Part shown: positions 11,655-59,934 of the stretch, piece by piece | How the letters are laid out: every line of letters starts with the position of its first letter | Numbering within the stretch: position 1 is the stretch's first letter | NCBI GenBank assembly: GCA_019116585.1 | Contig: DXBJ01000029.1 | Span: 1-64,000 of the forward strand | DNA from: Candidatus Faecalibacterium gallistercoris | GTDB taxonomy: Bacteria > Bacillota > Clostridia > Oscillospirales > Ruminococcaceae | DNA: 64,000 nucleotides | Direction: 5' to 3' | Program-made: the position numbers and the translations under genes | Notes under the pieces: generated by a model | Told to the model about the DNA's origin: nothing | Databases searched by the model: none | What the model saw: only the letters and a program-made list of their open reading frames with translations

Positions 11655-14357
11655 TCAGCAAAGGGTCACGGTGATGCGGTGTTCGGCTGCGGCCGGCAGC
11701 GCTTCCACCATGGCGCGGGGGATCAAGAGGCTGCCCGAGCTGCCTGCACACAGCTCTGCGCCGTCGCACACCGCGGCCCCGATCCGGTAGCTGCCATAGT
11801 CCAGCCTGCCCGGGTTCTGGTAGCAGACCGTCAGCCTGCGCCCGGCAAAGGTGACCTGCACCGCGGCGTGGCCGCCGGCGTCGAACTGCCCGGCGGTCAG
11901 CTTGGGTTCCAGCAGCAGGTCGCCTGCTTCGCCCCGCACCCCAAAGACCTGGGTGATCATGGTCATCATGTACCAGCTGGCCGCGCCGGTAAGGTAGTGG
12001 TACATCCCCCGGCCGTCGGCGCGGAAGTATTCGGGGATGCCGGGATAAATGCGGCTGGTATCGAAATCCAGGGCGGTGTCCGCCAGGGTCTTGAGGGCCT
12101 TCCAGCCCTCCTGCACAAAGCCCCGGCGGTAAAGCGCGTTGGCGTACATCACCGCCATGTGGGAAAAGACCGCCCCGTTTTCCTTTTCGCCGTAGGCAAA
12201 GCCGAACATCCGCCCCAGGTCAAACTTCAGCTCGTGGAAGTCGGTGTTCAGCCGGTAGCCGCCGATCTCCCGGCGGTACAGGTAGCGGTCGGCGCTGGCC
12301 GTGATCTGACGGACCTGGGCGTCGGTGGCCACGCCGCCCATGATGGCAAACACCTGCCCGGTCAGCATCATGCGCACCCCGGTGGGGAAAACGCCTTCCA
12401 CCGCCCGGCCGTGGTCGTCGTAATAGCTGTTGTACCAGCCCAGGCCCTCCCCGGCGTCGATCCACTCGTGGCCCTGCAGCCAGGCAGTCAGCCAGCGGGC
12501 CTTCTGCTCCAGGCTGTCGGCCAGGTCCTCCAGGCGGACCTCCACCCGGCGGCCGCTGATGGTGTGGCGGCAGGCTCCGGCATACTGCTCCAGCAGGCTG
12601 CGCTTGGCCTCCACCTGGTCCAGCACCTCGGGCTGATCGTTCAGCAGGGTCAGGGCTTCTTCCAGGATGGGGGTGCTGCAGGCGCCGGTGGTGCGCTGCA
12701 GCAGCCGGATCATACCCGCCAGCTCCCGCAGGTTGCCGGCGTATGCGCAGGTAAAGGCGACGCTTTCACCGTGGGCAGCGGCCATGTCCAATGCGTCGTT
12801 CCAGTCCGCGCCCCGCAGGCGGTAAACGTTGTGCCGGCCCACCTCATAGAAGGCGGCCAGCTGCTCCACAAGCAGGTGTTCCAGGATGGTGCCCGTATAG
12901 ACCTGCCCGTCGGCTGTGCGCTGCCAGCAGCCCTGGCCGGGCTGGTAGTCGGGGTCGATGCGGGTGCCCCGCATCGCCTGTGCGTCCTTGAAATAGGGGG
13001 CCTGCCGGTCCAGGACAGCCACGTCGCCGGTCTGGTCGATGTACAGCTTGACGGTCATCTGGGGCCACAGGGCGTGGTCCATCCAGACGCGGGCGATGCC
13101 GTTGCGGTCTGCAATGAAATTGCCATCCCCCTCGCCGATGATGGTGGCGTTGGTGCCGTCGATCCGCACGCCGCCAAAGTTCTTTTCGATCATCTGCCCC
13201 ACGCCGGCAGGGTCCATCAAAAGCAGGGACAAGCAGTCCTGCCACAGATCGCGCCAGCCCCGGCCGCCCCGGCCGTAGTCGTGATGGGGCAGGAAGGAGC
13301 AGCCGAACAGCCGCCGCAGAAACGGCTGGAAGCAGACCCATCGCATCAGGCAGTCAAAGTCCCCGTCGCCGGTGGCAAAGCGGACGTTCACCTTTTCCAG
13401 CCAGGCGGCGCGGGTGCGCTCCAGAGCAGCGGCGGCCTTTTCCGGGCTGCCGTACCGCTCCCAGACGGCGCGGATGTCCGTCTCGCTGTCCTCCGCGCCC
13501 AGCACCAGGACGTACTGGACCTGCTGGCCGGGCGCCAAAGTCACCGCCGGGAAGCGGAAGGCTCCCATAGCTTCCCGTCCCTCTGCGGTGCAGCCGGCCG
13601 GCGCGCCGGGCAGCGGCTCAAATACGGCCCGCGGATGCAGGTAGGTGCCGCCCTCCCCCAAAAAGGCTTCCACCGTGGGGAAAAACGCCTCCGGCTGCTG
13701 GCCGCCGGGGCCGCAGCCCCACACGTAATAGATCCGGTGGTTGGGGCGGTGGCCCCGCTCGTCGAAGGACATGGTGGGGCGGACCAGCACGCCGTCCCCG
13801 GTGGTCCAGATGCGGTGCAGCATGGAGGTGACGTTGCGGTGGTCCCGGATGTTGTCCGCGCTGCGTCCGTAGAGGGGAATGGCCGCGGTGGGCGTCACCC
13901 GGCGGGGCTGGTCCGACCGGTTGCGCACCGAGACCAGCAGGATCTCCGCACGGTCGTGCGGGGGGCAGAAGGAGGTGACCGCGGTGTGCAGCCCCATGGC
14001 CTTCCAGCCGCGCTCCAGGGTGTGCCACATCAGGCCGGCGGTCACCGAGCTGTCATCCTGGTCAGGGGTGAAACGGGCGGCTTCCTGCCCGGCCGAAGCG
14101 CCCGCCGCCGAAAAGACCTGGCCTTCCGGCCCGGTCAGCCAGAAGTTGCGCCCCGACCGGTTGTTGTGCAGGTTTTCGGCGCTGACCGGCTCCAGCAGAA
14201 AGCTGTCCTGGTCCAGCTTGGCGTCGCCTCCCAGCGTAGGGGTGACGGAGCTTTTCATCCCGGTTTCCGAGGCCAGCGGAAAGTACAGATAGCTGACATT
14301 TTCGGGCCTGCGGATGGCAAAGCTGCCGTCCCCGTCCACAAAGTGCAGATGGTTCAA
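11655..14357 (-). CDS. GH94-family phosphorylase, divergent paralog (possible laminaribiose/beta-1,3-type)
   Basis: GADWNDALDMAAAHGESV and YHYLTGAASWYMMTMITQVFGVR motifs; likely TTG start at 14357 after AAAGGAGAGGTATCA. Confidence 0.8.
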   Translation of the reverse strand: MNHLHFVDGDGSFAIRRPENVSYLYFPLASETGMKSSVTPTLGGDAKLDQDSFLLEPVSAENLHNNRSGRNFWLTGPEGQVFSAAGASAGQEAARFTPDQDDSSVTAGLMWHTLERGWKAMGLHTAVTSFCPPHDRAEILLVSVRNRSDQPRRVTPTAAIPLYGRSADNIRDHRNVTSMLHRIWTTGDGVLVRPTMSFDERGHRPNHRIYYVWGCGPGGQQPEAFFPTVEAFLGEGGTYLHPRAVFEPLPGAPAGCTAEGREAMGAFRFPAVTLAPGQQVQYVLVLGAEDSETDIRAVWERYGSPEKAAAALERTRAAWLEKVNVRFATGDGDFDCLMRWVCFQPFLRRLFGCSFLPHHDYGRGGRGWRDLWQDCLSLLLMDPAGVGQMIEKNFGGVRIDGTNATIIGEGDGNFIADRNGIARVWMDHALWPQMTVKLYIDQTGDVAVLDRQAPYFKDAQAMRGTRIDPDYQPGQGCWQRTADGQVYTGTILEHLLVEQLAAFYEVGRHNVYRLRGADWNDALDMAAAHGESVAFTCAYAGNLRELAGMIRLLQRTTGACSTPILEEALTLLNDQPEVLDQVEAKRSLLEQYAGACRHTISGRRVEVRLEDLADSLEQKARWLTAWLQGHEWIDAGEGLGWYNSYYDDHGRAVEGVFPTGVRMMLTGQVFAIMGGVATDAQVRQITASADRYLYRREIGGYRLNTDFHELKFDLGRMFGFAYGEKENGAVFSHMAVMYANALYRRGFVQEGWKALKTLADTALDFDTSRIYPGIPEYFRADGRGMYHYLTGAASWYMMTMITQVFGVRGEAGDLLLEPKLTAGQFDAGGHAAVQVTFAGRRLTVCYQNPGRLDYGSYRIGAAVCDGAELCAGSSGSLLIPRAMVEALPAAAEHRITVTLC

Positions 14358-14393
14358 TGATACCTCTCCTTTCCTGTACAATATGCTATCCCT

Positions 14394-14399
14394 ATTATA
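14394..14399 (-). promoter_or_regulatory. Probable -10 element for the GH94 gene(s)
   Basis: TATAAT on the minus strand in the divergent intergenic region. Confidence 0.4.
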
Positions 14400-14540
14400 T
14401 AGAAACGGGGCGCGGCCAAAAATCAAAACCGTGTGCAAAAGTGTCAGAATCATGACGTAATTTATGCTTCTGGCCAAAAGCTTGTCAAGGATTTGATATT
14501 TTTTATGGAATTGTTATATATTCGGCTGGAAAAATTCCGT

Positions 14541-14546
14541 TATAAT
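14541..14546 (+). promoter_or_regulatory. Probable -10 element for the ABC importer operon
   Basis: TATAAT with no good -35, consistent with activator dependence. Confidence 0.45.
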
Positions 14547-14616
14547 ACAAGTACGAGAAGGGCCCCCGGGACGGGAAAAGCCCCCCTACTGCAAGAACAA
14601 AGAGGAGGTACACACT

Positions 14617-16026
14617 ATGAACACAAGCAAAATCAGCCGCCGCTCTTTCCTGAAGGGCGTGGGCGCCGCAGGCGCCACCGGCCTGCTGGCCGCGTGCGGC
14701 GGCGGTGATTCCACGGCCGCGTCCGGTTCTGCGTCGGGCGGCAGCGCCGCGGCAGAGGGCAAGGTCATCAACATCTACAGCTGGAACGACGAGTTCCGCA
14801 CCCGGCTGGAAGCCGTCTACCCCGAAGTGGAGAGCACCTCGGCCGACGGCACCGTCACCACCCTGAAGGACGGCACCGAGATCCACTGGGTCATCAACCC
14901 CAACCAGGACGGCGTCTACCAGCAGAAGCTGGACGAGGCCCTGCTGAACCAGGCCTCCGGCGCCGCCGACGACAAGGTGGACATCTTCCTGTCCGAGACG
15001 GACTACGTTTACAAATACACCGACGCCGCTGCGGACGTGGCCATGCCCCTGACCGACCTGGGCATCGACCCCGACACCGACCTGGCCGACCAGTACTCCT
15101 TTACCAGGGCCACCGCTTCGGACGCCAACGGCGTGCAGCGCGGCTCCACCTGGCAGTGCTGCCCCGGCCTGCTGGTCTACCGCCGGGACATCGCCCTGGA
15201 CACTTTCGGCACCGACGACCCCGCCGCTGTGGGCGAAAAGACCAAGGATTGGGATACCCTGAAGGCCACCGCCGAAGAGCTGAAAGCCAAGGGCTATTTC
15301 ACCTTTGCCTCCTATGCAGACACCTTCCGCCTGTACGGCAACAGCATCAGTGAGCCCTGGGGCGTGGAAGGCGAGGGCACCATCAAGGTCGACCCCCAGA
15401 TCATGAAGTGGATCAGCGACTCGAAAGAGTGGCTGGACGCCGGCTATCTGGACAAGACCGTCAAGGGCCAGTTCAACGACGACTGGAACAAGTCCATGGG
15501 CTCGGCCTCCAAGGTGTTCGCCTTCCTGCTGCCGGCCTGGGGCATCGACTTTACCCTGGCGCCCAACTGGGACGGGGCCGAGGGCTCCTGGGCCGTCACT
15601 ACTCCGCCGCAGGAGTACAACTGGGGCGGCTCCTACATCCACGCCTGCACCGGCACCGATAACATCGAGCACGTGCGGGACATCATCCTGGCCCTGACCG
15701 CCAACAAGGACAACCTGATCAAGATCTCGAAGGACTACCTGGACTTCACCAACACCGTGAGCGGCATGCAGGAAGCTGCCACCGATGACAGCTTTGCCTC
15801 CGCGTTCCTGGGCGGGCAGAACGCCTATGAGTACTTTGCCCCCGTGGCCGAGAACATCAAGATCGCGCCCCTGTCCTCCTACGACCAGGGCTGCGTCGAG
15901 CTGATCCAGAACGCTTTCAGCGACTACTACCAGGGCAACGTGGACTTTGACCGCGCCAAGGAGAACTTCGAGACCTCCATCATGGAGCGCTATCCCGACA
16001 TCACCGCCGTCCAGTGGCCGGACTGA
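14617..16026 (+). CDS. Carbohydrate ABC transporter substrate-binding lipoprotein
   Basis: SRRSFLKG...LLAAC lipobox; extracellular solute-binding fold; followed by two permeases. Confidence 0.9.
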   Translation: MNTSKISRRSFLKGVGAAGATGLLAACGGGDSTAASGSASGGSAAAEGKVINIYSWNDEFRTRLEAVYPEVESTSADGTVTTLKDGTEIHWVINPNQDGVYQQKLDEALLNQASGAADDKVDIFLSETDYVYKYTDAAADVAMPLTDLGIDPDTDLADQYSFTRATASDANGVQRGSTWQCCPGLLVYRRDIALDTFGTDDPAAVGEKTKDWDTLKATAEELKAKGYFTFASYADTFRLYGNSISEPWGVEGEGTIKVDPQIMKWISDSKEWLDAGYLDKTVKGQFNDDWNKSMGSASKVFAFLLPAWGIDFTLAPNWDGAEGSWAVTTPPQEYNWGGSYIHACTGTDNIEHVRDIILALTANKDNLIKISKDYLDFTNTVSGMQEAATDDSFASAFLGGQNAYEYFAPVAENIKIAPLSSYDQGCVELIQNAFSDYYQGNVDFDRAKENFETSIMERYPDITAVQWPD

Positions 16027-17978: not shown

Positions 17979-18010
17979 TCCACGGCTGCCATTTTATACG
18001 GAGGTCACTT

Positions 18011-20461
18011 ATGACATACGCGCATACCTACAGCGGCACACGCACCCGGGAGCCCTCCCCGCGGGAGCTGGAACATGGCCGCCTGGCCCGCCGGGCCGCT
18101 GCCGGGGGCATCGTCCTGCTGAAGAACACAGGCACCCTGCCGCTGGACCTTTCGGCCCCGGTGGCGCTGTTCGGCAGCGGCGCCAGCCGGACCGTCAAAG
18201 GCGGGATCGGCTCGGGCGACGTCAACAACCGGGCCAACGTCTCCATCTGCCAGGGCATGAAGGATGCGGGGCTCCGCCTGACCAGTGAGAACTGGCTGGA
18301 GGATTACGAAGCCCGCTACCATGCGGCCCGCGCCGCCTGGAAGCAGAAGGTGCTGGAGGCGGCCCGCTGGGTGGAAAACCCCTTTGACGCCTATGCGGCC
18401 AACCCCTTCGTCCTGCCCCAGGGCCGGCCCATCGTGCCCCAGGACGTGCAGGGAGCCGCAGCGGCGATCTATGTCCTGAGCCGCATCGCAGGGGAGGGCA
18501 AGGACCGCCGGCTGGAAAAAGGGGATTACTACCTCAGCGACGGAGAGTGGAACGACCTGCGCACCCTGGACCGTCTGGGTCTGCCCATCGTTCTGCTGAT
18601 TAACGCCGGCGGCCCGGTGGAGCTGACCGATTTGCTGGACGGGGCGGTCCACATCGAGGCGGTGCTGCAGCTGTCCCAGCTGGGGCAGGAGGGCGGCCAC
18701 GCGGTGGCGGACGTACTGCTGGGCAAGGCCACGCCGGAGGGCAAGCTGACCGCCACCTGGGCCCGGCGCTATACCGATTATCCCTGCGCCGAGAGTTTCA
18801 GCTACCTGGACGGCGACCTGGAAAAGGCCGTCTACCGGGAAGGAATCTATGTGGGGTACCGCTACTTTGACAGCTTCGGGGTCCAGCCGCTGTTTCCCTT
18901 TGGCTATGGGCTGTCCTACACCGACTTTGTCCTCCGCTTTGCGGGGCTGCGGACCCGGCCGGACGCCATCGAAGTGGATGTGGAAGTGGAAAATGCGGGC
19001 ATCTGCTTTTCCGGGCGGGAAGTGGCGCAGGTCTACATTTCCTGCCCCCAGAACGGCGGCGCCAAGGAGCTGCGCCGTCTGGCAGGGTTTGCCAAGACGC
19101 GGCTCCTCGCCCCCGAACAGCGCCAGACCCTGACCATCTGCATCCCCCAAAAGCAGCTGGCCACCTTTGCCGCGCAAAAGCAGGGCTGGGTGGTGGAGCA
19201 GGGGCTCTATGGCGTTTGGGTGGGGAACAGCAGCGCGGCGGTGACCCTCTGCGCCCAGATCCGGGTGGAGGCGGATACCCTCATCGAGCAGACCCACCCC
19301 ATCTGCCCCCTGAGCCAGCCGCTGGACGAGCTGGGCGCCGCAGACGCCGCCCAAAAAGAGTCGGCCCACCCTGCGGGGCTGCCGGTCTACGGGTTCTGCC
19401 CCCGGCCCGAGCCCCGGCCCGTCTGCCCCCCTGCGCCCCAGGCGGAAGGCCCGGTGGAACAGCTGATCCCCCTGCTGTACGGCAACATCACCAAGGGCAC
19501 CAGCACCCTGGGCTCGGCGGGGGTCCGTGTGCCCGGGTCGGCGGGCGAGAGCACCGAGGAGCTGGAAGCCAGCCGCGGGGTACCCTCCCTCATCATGGCG
19601 GACGGGCCTGCCGGGCTGCGCCTGCGCCAGAGCTACCAGGTGGACCGGGCCTCCGGCCGGGTCTACGGCGTGGGGGTGCTGGGCTCGCTGGAAAACGGCT
19701 ATCTGGAAGCGCCCCGTGACCACGAAAACGCCGACACCTATTATCAGTTCTGCACGGCTTTCCCGGTGGGGACGGCCCTGGCCCAGACCTGGGACACCGC
19801 TCTGCTGGAAGAGTTTGGCCGGGCCGTCGCCCGTGAGATGGAGGAGTTCGGGGTGGACCTGTGGCTGGCCCCGGGCATGAACATCCAGCGCAACCCGTTG
19901 TGCGGCCGCAACTTTGAATACTATGCAGAGGACCCCCTCCTGTCCGGTGTGTTGGCGGCCGCCGTGACCCGGGGCGTCCAGCACAGCGGCCGGTGCGGGG
20001 TGACTGTGAAGCACTTCGCCTGCAACAACCAGGAGGACAACCGGATGGGGGTGGACGTCCGGATCAGCCAGCGGGCCCTCCGGGAGATCTACCTGCGGGG
20101 TTTTGAGATCGCAGTGAAAACAGCCGCTCCCGCCGCCATCATGTCCTCCTACAACCGGATCAACGGAGTCTACGCCTCCAACAGCCGCGACCTGTGCACC
20201 GTGCTGGCCCGCGAGGAATGGGGCTTTGACGGGGTCATCATGTCGGACTGGAACACCACCGTCCCCGCCGATGGGAGCATCCCCTGGCAATGCGCCGCCG
20301 CCGGCAACGACATCATCATGCCCGGCAACCCGGATGACGACGCCAGCATCCGCAGCGCCTATGCCGCCGGCCGTCTGACCGAACAGGACATCCGCGCCTG
20401 CGCCGGCCGGGTGATCGCCCTGACTGCCCGCCTGCGCGGGCAGGAGAAGCCGGGTCAATAA
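18011..20461 (+). CDS. GH3 beta-glucosidase with inverted domain order (C-domain, Fn3-like, catalytic domain)
   Basis: GIVLLKNTGTLPL near the N-terminus; catalytic TIM-barrel motifs (KHFACNNQE, FDGVIMSDWN) at the C-terminal end; RBS ggaggtcactt. Confidence 0.88.
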   Translation: MTYAHTYSGTRTREPSPRELEHGRLARRAAAGGIVLLKNTGTLPLDLSAPVALFGSGASRTVKGGIGSGDVNNRANVSICQGMKDAGLRLTSENWLEDYEARYHAARAAWKQKVLEAARWVENPFDAYAANPFVLPQGRPIVPQDVQGAAAAIYVLSRIAGEGKDRRLEKGDYYLSDGEWNDLRTLDRLGLPIVLLINAGGPVELTDLLDGAVHIEAVLQLSQLGQEGGHAVADVLLGKATPEGKLTATWARRYTDYPCAESFSYLDGDLEKAVYREGIYVGYRYFDSFGVQPLFPFGYGLSYTDFVLRFAGLRTRPDAIEVDVEVENAGICFSGREVAQVYISCPQNGGAKELRRLAGFAKTRLLAPEQRQTLTICIPQKQLATFAAQKQGWVVEQGLYGVWVGNSSAAVTLCAQIRVEADTLIEQTHPICPLSQPLDELGAADAAQKESAHPAGLPVYGFCPRPEPRPVCPPAPQAEGPVEQLIPLLYGNITKGTSTLGSAGVRVPGSAGESTEELEASRGVPSLIMADGPAGLRLRQSYQVDRASGRVYGVGVLGSLENGYLEAPRDHENADTYYQFCTAFPVGTALAQTWDTALLEEFGRAVAREMEEFGVDLWLAPGMNIQRNPLCGRNFEYYAEDPLLSGVLAAAVTRGVQHSGRCGVTVKHFACNNQEDNRMGVDVRISQRALREIYLRGFEIAVKTAAPAAIMSSYNRINGVYASNSRDLCTVLAREEWGFDGVIMSDWNTTVPADGSIPWQCAAAGNDIIMPGNPDDDASIRSAYAAGRLTEQDIRACAGRVIALTARLRGQEKPGQ

Positions 20462-20565
20462 AGAGCGGCGCAGCCGGAAAACGCCAGTCAAACCGCGCCG
20501 GGGCTGAAAGCGAAAAAATCCGGAATTTTTCAAGGCCTGCTTGCACAGCGCCGGCAGCAGAAAAC

Positions 20566-20605
20566 AAAAAGGCAGAGCCCCTTCACCGGTGGCTCTGCCT
20601 TTTTG
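20566..20605 (+). terminator. Rho-independent terminator (element copy A)
   Basis: AAAAAGGCAGAGCC...GGCTCTGCCTTTTTG. Confidence 0.8.
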
Positions 20606-20636
20606 TTGCCCTATGCAGTTGTGGTTGTCCTGCGGC

Positions 20637-20743
20637 CGCGGCTCGGCTGCGCAGCAGTACAGGACTCGAACCGGGGCCGCCTCTGCGATGCCCGTGCAAA
20701 ACAAAAACCCGGGGCCTGCGGCCTCGGGTTTTTGTTTTGGTGG
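20637..20743. repeat. 107-bp direct repeat, copy A (putative att site)
   Basis: Matches 30777-30882 except one substitution and one T indel; contains a terminator hairpin and a tRNA T-arm-like string. Confidence 0.85.
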
Positions 20744-22204
20744 GCCATTCCCATCAGCGCTCGAACCCAAAACCTCACGAAGGGGGACGGTCTTGGCATT
20801 CTCTTTGAGGTTGAAATTCAGCACCACACGGTCCTCAAAGACATAGACCGAGTTGACAAAGTTGTCGATGATCTGCCGCTGGTACACAGGGCTGTTTGCA
20901 TCTCCCTGCCGGAACCGCTCAAACCAGAACAAAATCTGGTCCCGGCTCAGAGCTGGCCGCTGCAGTTCTTCTTCCAGGATGCTGGCCTTGAGAGCGTCCC
21001 TGCGGGTTTCCAGCTCGTCCAGACGCTGCTTGGTGGTGGAGGTCAAGATGCCCTGCTCGATGGCCTCCAGCAGGTTGGACAGCCGCTTTTCTGTGTCCCG
21101 AAGCTGCTCCTTCAGCACTGGTAGGCGGGTGCTCTCCCGGCCCTGGGCTTCCAAAATCAAATCGGTCAGGTGTTCGATGACCGGATCGTTCAAAACCAGC
21201 TTGACCGCAGTATCCACCACAAAGCGCTCCAAAGGTTCCTTGCGGATCGCTTTAAGGCTGCAATGTGCCTGCCCCTTGCGCTTGGCCTTGCCGCATTTGT
21301 AGTAATGATAGGTGGTGCCCATGTGGCTGGTGCCGCTCTCGCCGCCCATCAGGGTGCCGCATTTGCCGCAGAATATCTTGGTGGTCAGGAGGTAGTTGAC
21401 CTCCTCTTTGGCCGGGCGGCCATGGGTGATCTTGTTCTTTGTGAAACGTTCCTGCACCCGGTCGAACAGAGCCTGGTCCACAATGGCGGGCACACCACCG
21501 GGGATCACAATGTCCTTGTAGCCGTACTCCCCAATGTAGCGCCGGTTCTTGAAGATTTGGAAGAAACTGTTCTTGACAAATGGTTTCCCGGTGCGGGTGC
21601 GCAGGCCCCGTTCGTTCAGGGAGGCCGCGATCTTTTCGGCAGGTTCGCCGTCGGCATAGCGGGTGAAAATTTCCTGCACAATGGGAGCTGTCTCAGGGTC
21701 GATGTGGTAGAGCCGGTCCTCTTTTCCAATGACGTAGCCCAGCGGCACCACGCCGCCGTTGTACTTGCATTTGAGAGCGTTTTCCCGTTCGCCGCGGGCC
21801 ACCTTGATGGCCAGCTCAGCCGAATAATATTCGGCCATGCCAATGAGCAAGCTCTCGATCATGATGCCCTCAGGGCCGTCCGAGATCGGCTCCATGACCG
21901 AGACAAGGTGGACGCCGCTCTTTTCAAGCTGGCGTTTGTAGTAGACTGCATCGTAACGATTGCGGGCAAAGCGGTCCAGCTTCCAGACCAGGACCGCATC
22001 GAAAATCTTTTTGGCGCTGTCCTGAACCATCCGCTGAAATTCGGGGCGGTCGTCGGTCTTGGCGGAGTAGGCCCGGTCGATGTAAGTGCCCACGACGGTG
22101 ATACCGTTGCGCTCGGCGTAATCTTTGCAGTCCCGCAGCTGGCCTTCAATGGAGGCTTCGCGCTGGCTGTCCGAGGAGTAGCGGGCGTAGATGACGGCGG
22201 TCAT
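20744..22204 (-). CDS. Large serine recombinase / site-specific integrase (coding part before the repeat; frame stays open beyond)
   Basis: AVIYARYSSDSQREASIEGQLRDC resolvase domain, recombinase domain, zinc-ribbon CGKCGTLMGG...YKCGKAKRKGQAHC, coiled coil. Confidence 0.93.
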
Positions 22205-22513
22205 GGCGGGGCTTCCTTTCTGTAAAACAAGCGGATATAGCAAACTTTCGTATAACGTGTATACCATATTTTGCGAGACAAGGCAAGCGTTTCGCTGCAA
22301 ATAGTTGATATATCAATAAATACGCAATGCTTTTTGAAAACCAGAAAGGAAAAGTTTTGAAAAAAGCGATAAGCAAGTATTGACCTGTGGCCACAATTTC
22401 AAAAATTGAAATTGCGTCTCACATTCCAGTCGTACTTGTTGGGGAGTGCCTTCCCCAAACCCTGCGGCGGTGCAGCCGGAAGAATCCAAAGAAACCACGC
22501 AGGGATTTCGTGG

Positions 22514-22556
22514 CACACGACTTTGCTGGCAAAGTCTAGTGTGTTATACCTTTGCG
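22514..22556 (+). other. MOBV/pMV158-type origin of transfer (oriT) with nic site
   Basis: CACAC-GACTTTGC-TG-GCAAAGTC-TAGTGTG^TTATACCTTTGCG; hairpin followed by TAGTGTG/TTATAC as in the pMV158 family. Confidence 0.7.
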
Positions 22557-23104
22557 AAGTCGAAGGCAACGAGAGCCGGTTCTACGCTTCCTGTTCCAGC
22601 GATTGCAAACCAGCCTTTTTGCCCTCTGCTAAGCAAAGGTATATCACCCTCGTCTTTCGCTCCGATATTTCGTCATATTTGGCGTTTTGCTGAGATTTCC
22701 AATCCGTTCTATTGCACCCTGCCGAAATTGCTTTGCTACCGTAAAAAGTTGTTGACATTCTGCGCGAACTCATGATATATTTATTAGACCATTGAATATG
22801 GAAAATAAAATTATATAGATATTTTGGCTCGATTCTCAAAGCATTCAGAGCAATCGGAGCAGTTTTAGAACAAATTGAATCGCTACATAAAACGGAACTG
22901 GAGGTCTCCCGAGAAGGGAGAGTTTTTTCGGTCTGTTTGTGTAGCGATTTTTTGCTTCCGTCGCCCTGTTTGCACTTTGAGAACCGAACGATCGTCTGCA
23001 TGGAATATCCGGCCAGGACCTCCCTCAGAACGACCAGGGGGAGCGAGCCGGACAACGCCGCCGGAAGGGGGCAGGAAGCTCATGCGGGGAGAGCGGCAAG
23101 CCTT

Positions 23105-23566
23105 TTATAGGCCCGTATTACCTGTGTCTCCCATCGAACGCAGCTCATCCAGCGCATTGACCGCCGCATGGTTGAGTGCCTCGTTTTCAGGATCGGCAGA
23201 GGCTTTCTTGTTCGTGAGCCGGACTTTACGAATCGCCTTTTCGATCTCTCTGGAAGTATGTCCCGCTTTCAATGCCTGAATCGCAAAACTAGCGATGGTA
23301 ATACAGTCATCCTGGCTGAACTTGTCTTGTATCAGCATTCGCCCAAGCTGCTCCAAGATGCCTTGTTTCCCGCCTGCCGTTTGAGTGGAGGCATCGGAGC
23401 ACCATAGAAGGTCACTGTCTGGAATTTCGGTAGCCGCTACCGAAATTAGATCGACACCTTCATACATGTACACAGCATTGACAGCTTGCCGTCTGCTAGA
23501 AGCGTAAGCCTCGGTAATGTGCGTATCGATTTTCGGCCGGCCCCGGCCTCGCTTGTCCTGTTCCAT
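23105..23566 (-). CDS. Conserved mobile-element protein, possible DNA-binding regulator
   Basis: RBS GGAGGG; basic N-terminus KRGRGRPKID; 153 aa; palindromic site in its upstream region. Confidence 0.6.
   Translation of the reverse strand: MEQDKRGRGRPKIDTHITEAYASSRRQAVNAVYMYEGVDLISVAATEIPDSDLLWCSDASTQTAGGKQGILEQLGRMLIQDKFSQDDCITIASFAIQALKAGHTSREIEKAIRKVRLTNKKASADPENEALNHAAVNALDELRSMGDTGNTGL
23423..23447. repeat. 25-bp perfect palindrome AATTTCGGTAGC-C-GCTACCGAAATT inside the CDS
   Basis: Read directly; near-identical copy at 23652-23676. Confidence 0.9.
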
Positions 23567-23651
23567 GATTCCGCCCTCCTTCTACGCTGGGACTTTACTC
23601 TATTGTATCATAAACCTTCATCAAAGCATAGCACTGGAGGGAACTGAAAAG

Positions 23652-23676
23652 AATTTCGGTAGCCGCTACCGAAAAT
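23652..23676. promoter_or_regulatory. Second copy of the 25-bp palindrome, about 86 bp upstream of the 23566 start (candidate operator)
   Basis: AATTTCGGTAGC-C-GCTACCGAAAAT. Confidence 0.6.
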
Positions 23677-24025
23677 GCCGCTCAACAGAATATTGTCTAA
23701 TAGGTCCTCTCGTTACGCTACGGGAGGGCCTTGTTTTGTCCAAGAGCGTGGAAATGTGGGCATTTTGGGGCAAATTTCCAACCTCTTGGACATACGGGAG
23801 AGCTCTGGATTTTCTGTTATACTGTCTCCAATGTAAAACTGAATGACCGTCCTCACCGCCCAAACCGCCACGACCTCCACCTGGAGCGAGCGCCCGAAAG
23901 GGATGGCACAGCACCCTCAGAGATGAGTGGTTGCCTGCCAGAAGCGATGAGGGAAACCGGCAAATGATTTGTCCCGGTATACGGCAAAACGCCGGATACC
24001 ATCAACTGCAAAGAAAGAGGTGTCA

Positions 24026-25342
24026 ATGAAATACGAAAAGCCCTACAACTCCGCATGGCCTGATTGGTACGATGGCAAGAAGATCAATGAGGTCCAGTTC
24101 TGCTACGACTTTTTGAAATTCCATCCACTCAAGTGCATCGCTGGTCGGTTTTACACGCCGGACGGCCCTGTAGAGAACGAAGCCGAAATCAAACAAAAGG
24201 TCCTGTTGGAGATCGAAAGCTATGTGACCAGCGGGCTTTCCAAGAAGGTGAGCAACATCTTGGAAAGCCTGCGGCTGCTGGCCTATGCCGCTCCTATGGA
24301 AATCGAGGCCGACCGTATTCACTTGCAAAACGGAGTCTATCATCTGGCCGATGGAACCTTTCAGGAGAACAAGATGTTTTGCCGCAACCGTTTGCCTGTC
24401 GCCTATAACGCCCAGGCCGCTGCTCCCGAACGCTGGCTGACCTTTCTCGGCGACCTGCTTGATGCTGAGGACATCCCCACCCTGCAGGAGTACTTGGGCT
24501 ACTGTCTCATCCCCAGCACCAAAGGTCAGCGGATGATGCTCATCATCGGCAAGGGCGGGGAGGGCAAGTCTCGCATTGGCCTGGTGCTCAAAAAGTTGAT
24601 GGGCGACGCTGTCAGCAACGGCAGTATCCAGAAAATTGAGACCAGCCGTTTCGCCCGCGCCGACCTGGAACATCGCCTGCTGATGGTAGACGACGACACG
24701 GACATGAACGCACTTCCCAAGACCAATTACCTCAAGTCCATCGTGACCGCTGAGGCCAAGATGGACGTAGAGCGCAAGGGCATCCAAAGCTATCAGAGCG
24801 ACATCTATGCACGTTTCCTCGGCTTCGGCAACGGCGCGTTGACTTCCCTGTACGACCACTCGGACGGCTTCTGGCGGCGGCAGCTTATCCTAACCACAAA
24901 AGAACGTCCAGCCGACCGGGAGGACGACCCCTTCCTGATCGAAAAGCTCTGTGAGGAACTGGAAGGCATCCTTCTCTGGTGCCTGAAGGGATTGACCCGG
25001 CTGCTGCGGAACAACTACAAGTTTACGGTCAGCGCCCGCGCTGCCGGCAATCTGGACACCGTCAAACGCAGCAGCAACAATGTCCTGGATTTTCTGGAAT
25101 CGGAGGGCTACTTCCGCTTCAAAGCCGACGCTGAGGTCAGCTCCAAGTGCCTCTATGAAGTCTACAAGGTCTGGTGTGACGACAACGCCTGCCGTCCGGT
25201 GTCACCCAACCGGCTCAGCACCGAACTGAACCAGCAAAGCCTCCGTTATAACCTGGAGGCCACCAACAACATCTACTTGCCAGGCGGCCGCCGGGTGCGC
25301 GGGTTTGTCGGCATCGAGGCGCTCATTCACCCCTGCCAATAA
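24026..25342 (+). CDS. P4/D5-family phage/plasmid DNA primase-helicase (SF3)
   Basis: Walker A IIGKGGEGKSRIG, Walker B LLMVDDD, FWRRQLILTT; RBS AAGAGGTG. Confidence 0.82.
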   Translation: MKYEKPYNSAWPDWYDGKKINEVQFCYDFLKFHPLKCIAGRFYTPDGPVENEAEIKQKVLLEIESYVTSGLSKKVSNILESLRLLAYAAPMEIEADRIHLQNGVYHLADGTFQENKMFCRNRLPVAYNAQAAAPERWLTFLGDLLDAEDIPTLQEYLGYCLIPSTKGQRMMLIIGKGGEGKSRIGLVLKKLMGDAVSNGSIQKIETSRFARADLEHRLLMVDDDTDMNALPKTNYLKSIVTAEAKMDVERKGIQSYQSDIYARFLGFGNGALTSLYDHSDGFWRRQLILTTKERPADREDDPFLIEKLCEELEGILLWCLKGLTRLLRNNYKFTVSARAAGNLDTVKRSSNNVLDFLESEGYFRFKADAEVSSKCLYEVYKVWCDDNACRPVSPNRLSTELNQQSLRYNLEATNNIYLPGGRRVRGFVGIEALIHPCQ

Positions 25343-25365
25343 TATAAACTTTTATAAGCTGAGTG

Positions 25366-25477
25366 CCGTACAGCCTGTACGTACTGTACACTGTACGGCG
25401 GCCAAGAAAACCGTTTTTTGAAAACAACGTATCATCACTGAACAATAAAATATCGTACACCGTACAACTCGTACAGC
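25366..25477. repeat. GTAC-rich iteron-like cluster downstream of the primase
   Basis: CCGTACAGCCTGTACGTACTGTACACTGTACGG and TCGTACACCGTACAACTCGTACAG within about 110 bp. Confidence 0.6.
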
Positions 25478-25584
25478 CCCTATCTTCATTGAACGCAATT
25501 TTTGAATTAGTATACAACGCTTAAAAGAATTGAGGTGAAATTTTATGAATCACATCTTCCCCAACATGACATGGAGGACAGTAC

Positions 25585-25764
25585 TTGACCAGAAAGAAGG
25601 ATGTAGAGAAAGAATACGGCCTGCCTGCAGGCTCTCTCGAATGTCTGGCCCGGACATTTCTGCCCGGGATCCAGGCATTTTTTGAAATTGAGGAAAATCA
25701 AAGGGCTTTTGAGGCTTGGCTTGCACGACGCCCGCAGGATCCAAAAGAAGAAAAGGCTGCCTAG
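25585..25764 (+). CDS. 59-aa small protein of the mobile element (TTG start)
   Basis: GGAGGACAGTAC-TTG; LTRKKDVEKEYGLPAGSLECLARTFLPGIQAFFEIEENQRAFEAWLARRPQDPKEEKAA; stop overlaps the MITE edge. Confidence 0.5.
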   Translation: MTRKKDVEKEYGLPAGSLECLARTFLPGIQAFFEIEENQRAFEAWLARRPQDPKEEKAA

Positions 25765-25926
25765 GGTGTATCTGAGAAGTCAAAAATGCTGGAATATTCG
25801 CCAAAAAGCGCCAGATGCAAGGCGCATGAGCGCCGCACTCCTCTGTGGAATGCAAGCGAATGCAACGCAGCAGATGGGGCTTTTTGGTAGAATAGAACAG
25901 CGTTGGGGAATTTTCAGATACACCCT
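25763..25926 (-). mobile_element. 164-bp MITE-like inverted-repeat element, full copy
   Basis: Ends AGGGTGTATCTGA.../...TCAGATACACCCT; reverse complement matches the copy at 59771 along its length. Confidence 0.8.
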
Positions 25927-25936
25927 AAGAAAGTAC

Positions 25937-30666: not shown

Positions 30667-30776
30667 CACTGTTTGGTGGGTCGGGTTGCGGTGCCCTGAA
30701 TTTCCGGCGCGCATGCAATGCGCTTGAAAATTCAGACCGCGGCCCCTGCTCCGCCTCGCCTGTTTCGTCCGCGGGA

Positions 30777-30882
30777 CGCGGCTCGGCTGCGCAGCAGTAC
30801 AGGACTCGAACCGGGGCCGTCTCTGCGATGCCCGTGCAAAACAAAAACCCGGGGCCTGCGGCCTCGGGTTTTGTTTTGGTGG
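30777..30882. repeat. 106-bp direct repeat, copy B (overlaps the tRNA-Val 3' end and its terminator)
   Basis: Near-identical to 20637-20743. Confidence 0.85.
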
Positions 30883-59683: not shown

Positions 59684-59770
59684 AGTGTGTCCTGTTCGTA
59701 TCGTATGCAGAAGGGTTTCAGACGGACAAAAAGGAACGGGCCGTACACCTTTCAAGCCGGTGCACAGCCT

Positions 59771-59934
59771 AGGGTGTATCTGAAAACTCCTCAACACTGT
59801 CCCATTCTACCAGAAAGGCGCATCTGCTGCGTTGCATTCGCTTGCATTCCATGGAGGAGTGCGGCGCTCATGCGCCTTGCATCTGCACCTTTCTGGCGAA
59901 TGGTTCAGCATTTTTGACTTCTCAGATACACCCT
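59771..59934 (+). mobile_element. 164-bp MITE-like inverted-repeat element, full copy
   Basis: AGGGTGTATCTGAAAAC...TCTCAGATACACCCT; inverted homolog of 25763-25926. Confidence 0.8.

Follow-up and report, generated by a model that had tools for sequence, protein, structure and literature searches.

A predicted MOBV-type origin of transfer on a small integrative element without a detected relaxase gene in Candidatus Faecalibacterium gallistercoris

How might an element be mobilized if it carries an origin of transfer (oriT) and no gene for the relaxase that would nick it? The question is raised by a short segment, 22514-22556, in a 64,000-nt stretch of Candidatus Faecalibacterium gallistercoris DNA (contig DXBJ01000029.1; hereafter the window). 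A prior sequence-only reading had described an 8-bp stem, an outer CACAC/GTGTG pairing and a nick string. Direct reading finds exactly this layout: CACAC at 22514-22518, GACTTTGC at 22519-22526, a TG loop at 22527-22528, GCAAAGTC at 22529-22536, TA at 22537-22538, GTGTG at 22539-22543, and TTATACC from 22544. The features of the site are as follows.

22514-22543, + strand: 5′ oriT hairpin (IR1/IR3-like), CACAC-GACTTTGC-TG-GCAAAGTC-TA-GTGTG, assigned from the sequence and the pMV158 plan (PMC5863519)
22543-22544, + strand: predicted nic, G/T, in TGTG/TTATAC, identical to the MobM nick (PMC5863519)
22545-22643, + strand: second oriT stem-loop, arms 22545-22555 and 22633-22643, extended inward, with compensatory changes in 9 of 15 pairs

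In the pMV158 oriT, which is nicked at TGTG/TTATAC, the IR1 stem is accompanied by an outer stem, IR3, that has a small bulge (PMC5863519). In the window, the nic string TAGTGTG/TTATAC likewise follows a hairpin. TAGTGTGTTATA occurs once in the 64 kb, where 0.04 occurrences are expected even with one mismatch allowed. Folding 22508-22650 as ssDNA gives two hairpins side by side, and nic is where they meet (-26.7 kcal/mol, z = -3.7). The earlier reading let its call depend on a match to MOBV oriTs beyond the short motif, and there is one: over 79 bp, the site has 94.9% identity with an oriT that is linked to a MOBV gene. In helix 1, the 5′ hairpin, 98.1% of cells are paired and both-side changes occur at 2 pairs, from which the structural support mainly comes, since most of the other pairs are invariant. 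Judged by its letters, the 22514-22556 segment is a MOBV-type origin of transfer.

The exact 16-mer core GTGTGTTATACCTTTG was sought in 398 genomes of the family, and its positions were compared with PF01076 matches and gene maps. Twenty-three exact cores were found; a reversed control pattern gave zero matches in any genome listed. Linkage to MOBV relaxase genes is seen at 17 of the 23, with a MOBV gene (16 cores) or a Mob fragment (one core, L105) 0.5-10 kb downstream on the same strand. Three cores lie where the contig breaks off (G359 C10, G359 C11 and G238 C21), and three are orphans without a MOBV gene: the window, G362 C22 and G038 C1. The genome of the last has no PF01076 match. Related 40-bp matches on Pusillibacter, Subdoligranulum and Enterococcus plasmids are also near mobV genes, and the stretches examined around some related matches contain no Mob, including those on pRGI00613, a Lactobacillus amylovorus plasmid and a Subdoligranulum record. 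Both oriT matches from IMG/VR (L159 and L160) have Mob.

The hairpins sit in the control region upstream of rep, as they do in sibling elements, and could on that account be a replication or regulatory site common to these elements instead of an oriT. We consider this most improbable: the mapped oriT of pMV158 has the same nick string and hairpin plan (PMC5863519), and the site also accompanies a MOBV gene at three loci (L110, L111 and L112) that showed no Rep of this family in the 16 kb covered.

The sequence-only reading also noticed an inverted recurrence near 22636. The pair, TATACCTTTGC (22545-22555) and GCAAAGGTATA (22633-22643), is indeed exact, and was matched in 0 of 300 shuffles of the downstream sequence. 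In 26 of 27 oriTs, the 10 nt beginning at the second base 3′ of nic have a 9-10/10 complementary copy located 90-207 nt downstream. Across 20 distinct sequences, both-side changes occur in 9 of the 15 pairs of the second stem, and both stems jointly pair in 93.9% of cells vs 83.7% in shuffles and 23-53% with slid partners, it being understood that the second-stem arms were located by complementarity, which biases the outer ten pairs upward. The inner five pairs were not used to locate the arms; there, compensated variation persists, with 26 of 100 cells unpaired. Both arms are intact in the window and in the orphan from Gemmiger described below.

A long stem that covaries and begins 1-2 nt 3′ of nic is absent from the published description of the pMV158 oriT; that is, no comparable second stem is among the repeats described for it, and none is evident upstream of mobV in Staphylococcus aureus pSWS2889. 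Tentatively, we suggest that the MOBV oriTs of this gut Clostridia family may consist of two hairpins flanking nic, a short 5′ hairpin and a 90-210-nt 3′ stem-loop with covarying arms. The 3′ stem might act on the transferred strand, in strand re-closure, in second-strand priming or as a single-strand promoter, and relaxase-less elements would then have to keep both hairpins to be mobilized. The covarying second stem offers a new handle on MOBV oriT function outside pMV158.

What carries this oriT? The sequence-only reading proposed an element spanning 20.6-30.9 kb. That span does not hold. When Rep was used as the query, a copy turned up in Gemmiger formicilis An812 (NZ_JACJJP010000002.1, L102; contig G362 C22) that aligns to window positions 20730-25726 with 90.9% identity over 5018 bp and has different flanks. 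The alignment gives an element of ~5.2 kb, from 20739 (~20.74 kb) to ~25.93-26.01 kb, with the parts listed here.

20739-20743, no strand: left junction, attL core TGGTGG/GGTGG, where host intergenic/tRNA-Val-3′-end-like sequence meets the element
20752-22204, - strand: large serine recombinase with Resolvase, Recombinase and Zn-ribbon domains (PF00239, 6.1e-30; PF07508, 2.9e-19; PF13408, 5.9e-13)
22960-23100, + strand: conserved non-coding block N22950, a block that sits just upstream of rep in other elements
23105-23566, - strand: 153-aa protein with a GRGRPK motif, in place of the siblings' XRE regulator
23840-23965, + strand: conserved non-coding block NCR, upstream of rep; its identity is 93-97% between elements where that of Rep is only ~53%
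24026-25342, + strand: Rep, a P4-type primase/helicase with DUF5906 and D5_N domains (PF19263, 4.4e-19; PF08706, 9.1e-07; TIGR01613, 9.7e-35)
25343-25584, + strand: gap at the position of the siblings' MOBV relaxase, by the Rep-Mob order in L118, L073 and others
25585-25764, + strand: small ORF of 59 aa, which follows mob in siblings
25762-25927, no strand: 166-bp MITE-like insertion with 46-nt terminal inverted repeats, where the small ORF ends

Homology to the Gemmiger copy begins at window position 20730 (5695 in L102). GGTGG also terminates a host repeat beside tRNA-Val, at 30878-30882. The right end is placed between 25928 and ~26010, as the MITE-like insertion, whose first bases are the stop codon of the small ORF, hides it; a second MITE-like copy, 90% identical, lies at 59770-59934.

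A 10.1-kb element bounded by 111-bp direct repeats (20627-20743 and 30767-30882) was considered and rejected: the repeat is also found beside tRNA-Val on another contig, C62, and the Gemmiger copy ends near 25.73 kb. The repeat is thus reckoned to be a tRNA-Val-flanking repeat and no proof of att ends. Its three copies (the two above and G000 C62:871-974) end in the tRNA-Val 3′ end, TGGTGG; two adjoin tRNA-Val genes, and the third is the element's left junction. A larger co-mobile island may extend beyond the 5.2-kb unit; the ABC-transporter and two-component genes at 26.0-30.4 kb are absent from the Gemmiger copy. No clean empty site was recovered at relatives' tRNA-Val loci or at the Gemmiger flanks. 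In a relative (G016 C45; L143 1-1665), a recombinase fragment 92.7% identical to the element's lies ~10 kb from the same tRNA-Val locus and breaks off at the equivalent of window position 22465, just short of oriT.

The integrase and replication gene that the earlier reading had assigned are borne out by Pfam, PHROG and TIGR01613 as the serine recombinase and the P4-type Rep; that is, the element encodes its own recombinase. The recombinase has a PHROG integrase match at 4e-120 and is 94.8% identical in the Gemmiger copy. Its frame (18005-22300, - strand) has no stop inside the element and stays open through attL into host DNA, where it is antisense to a glycosidase gene; the flank of the Gemmiger copy gives TAA at once. 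Pfam, NCBIfam and PHROG give no match for the 153-aa protein, which is 96% identical in the Gemmiger copy and 58-59% identical in the mob-bearing element L118; its one structure model (mean pLDDT 51) is too poor for interpretation. A palindrome, AATTTCGGTAGCCGCTACCGAAATT, occurs inside the 153-aa gene (23425-23447) and again upstream of it (23652-23674); these are possible operators. N22950 is 96.4% identical in the Gemmiger copy and ~90% identical over its 3′ third in L039, L059 and L060. NCR (125 nt; also at 10541-10665 of L002, the locus on contig C68 of the same genome) has an RNA fold with z = -2.5, and a search of the element, NCR included, against Rfam gave no family, only weak noise matches. 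NCR is a candidate regulatory RNA or replication origin. The small ORF is 83% identical in the Gemmiger copy and matches the ORF after mob on C68 (47% over 34 aa).

No MOBV relaxase was found by a six-frame search of 20.6-31.0 kb and of the Gemmiger locus with a profile of the relatives' Mob proteins, in line with the earlier statement that 20.6-30.9 kb holds no relaxase-like ORF. The same profile finds genes in L002, L118, L159, L160 and L163. No relaxase of another class was seen either, as covered via Pfam on the main ORFs, and the element lacks the MOBV relaxase that a canonical MOBV IME (Tn4451-like) encodes. The position of the missing gene is precise. In siblings, the order is oriT-XRE-NCR-Rep-Mob (L073 and L113) or oriT-153-aa gene-Rep-Mob (L118), and the small ORF follows Mob in L002, L110 and L116. 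In the window and the Gemmiger copy, the small ORF comes directly after Rep; mob is missing exactly between the two. Elsewhere in the genome, the relaxase search that the sequence-only reading proposed, carried out in six frames, confined PF01076 to C68 and PF03432 to C4, in an assembly that is 93% complete in 81 contigs, so that further relaxases could be missed.

Might the element nevertheless encode an unrecognized relaxase, the 153-aa protein, the small ORF product or Rep, that nicks its own site? In favor is that the 153-aa protein is without a family match and is encoded next to oriT. The possibility is nonetheless very slight, as the site has the MOBV form and elsewhere goes with MOBV genes, L118 has the 153-aa protein along with a MOBV gene of its own, and Rep is a P4-type primase/helicase.

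The Gemmiger copy also bears on whether the oriT is a non-functional relic, left in a decayed IME that lost mob by deletion. Mob is not where it normally stands, after rep and before the small ORF, a MITE has inserted into the 3′ end of the small ORF, and another orphan (L103), with an IS110-like ORF beside it, has a decayed look. The searches yielded two full copies without a relaxase, however; the second comes from another genus, is ~9% diverged, and has an intact oriT and the gene set of the first. Between the two copies, dN/dS is 0.07 for the recombinase, 0.04 for the 153-aa protein, 0.10 for Rep and 0.17 for the small ORF, at dS of 0.26-0.57. These values indicate that the relaxase-less form is old and maintained, and they count against a recent dead deletion; we regard the relic as unlikely. 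The relaxase-less lineage has been maintained, after or without mob, under purifying selection. Selection on the genes is evidence of maintenance of the element and not of its transfer. Independent loss of mob in each copy is an alternative, against which stands their sharing of both gene set and missing gene. The 5.0-kb copy in another genus and at a different site indicates that the element, whose right end in the window is masked by the MITE, moves between genomes as a unit. A MOBV element without a relaxase can persist, and can pass from one genus to another.

The preferred reading is that the site is the oriT of a ~5.2-kb integrative element that either never encoded a relaxase or has lost it, a hitcher of the "iOriT" type, and we consider this probable. 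Which relaxase might serve it? The only other exact TAGTGTGTTATA in the genome, at C68:9327, lies on an element with a MOBV relaxase gene at 13728-14741. The relaxase is intact and is the genome's only PF01076 match; its AHNERRKEKYASNPDID and HMDEKTAHMHLSFVP fit what we take to be MOBV motifs. Through CACACGACTTTG and CAAAGTCTAGTGTGTTATACCTTTG, the oriT on C68 has the same letters as that in the window; the hairpin tip differs by a compensated change. On contig C68 (L002 12600-13700), more than 10 different perfect or near-perfect palindromes lie between an IS-type transposase gene and mob. A TraG/VirD4-type coupling protein is encoded on C45 of the same genome. The Gemmiger genome has a MOBV gene with a matching oriT on its contig C13. 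With cognate relaxase, matching oriTs and coupling protein co-resident, and a second such pair in Gemmiger, mobilization in trans by another element's MOBV relaxase is likely.

The cycle may be pictured as follows. The serine recombinase, judging from its domains, would excise the element as a circle. The MOBV relaxase of another element, such as that on C68, would bind the hairpin, nick between G22543 and T22544 and remain on the 5′ TTATACC end, as the oriT match and co-residence suggest. A helper secretion system would carry the strand across, perhaps through the coupling protein on C45; the 153-aa gene and rep would lead, and the recombinase gene would be the last to enter. Replication of the circle may fall to the P4-type Rep, and its re-integration, at TGGTGG-type sites, would be the work of the recombinase. 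One commensal genome provides a helper and a hitcher that can be tested together, and Gemmiger provides another such pair. Elements of this sort would be overlooked if mobility were typed from relaxases alone; oriT searches, with the core and the second stem, would detect them.

Hitch-hikers of this kind are already known, and the evidence supports well that the element is a new family of them. The site resembles the pMV158 oriT of MobM (MOBV1) in TAGTGTG/TTATAC at nic, the IR1 stem, and the outer CACAC/GTGTG with a small bulge (PMC5863519). The MobM contact site is AAGtaTAGTGTG in pMV158 vs AAGTCTAGTGTG in the window (PMC5863519). The hairpin sequence differs, and mob, adjacent in pMV158, is 0.5-10 kb off or absent in this family; the long second stem 3′ of nic is not among the repeats described for pMV158 and is not seen in pSWS2889. 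The mob-bearing sibling IMEs (L118, L073, L113 and L002) share the order of oriT, regulator or 153-aa gene, and NCR or Rep, and have the small ORF after mob; unlike the element, they encode a MOBV relaxase, and several have an unrelated serine recombinase at the other end. Relaxase-less plasmids mobilized by mimicking a helper's oriT are described for the S. aureus pWBG749 family (pOriT plasmids; PMC8136818); they are not integrative and have a different oriT. Our literature search found no report of a MOBV-type relaxase-less integrative element in this group, which is not proof of absence. Closest are the iOriT/MGI hitchers, a recognized kind that includes MGIVflInd1, SGI1-type islands and, in Firmicutes, MTnSag1 and tISCpe8 (PMC5704250, PMC11389934). 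Like them, the element is integrative, has no relaxase gene, and carries an oriT of a kind recognized by another element (PMC5704250, PMC11389934). It differs in that its oriT comes from a MOBV mobilizable-element family, a serine recombinase and a P4-type Rep are present, and its relaxase would probably come from a sibling IME, not from an ICE or conjugative plasmid.
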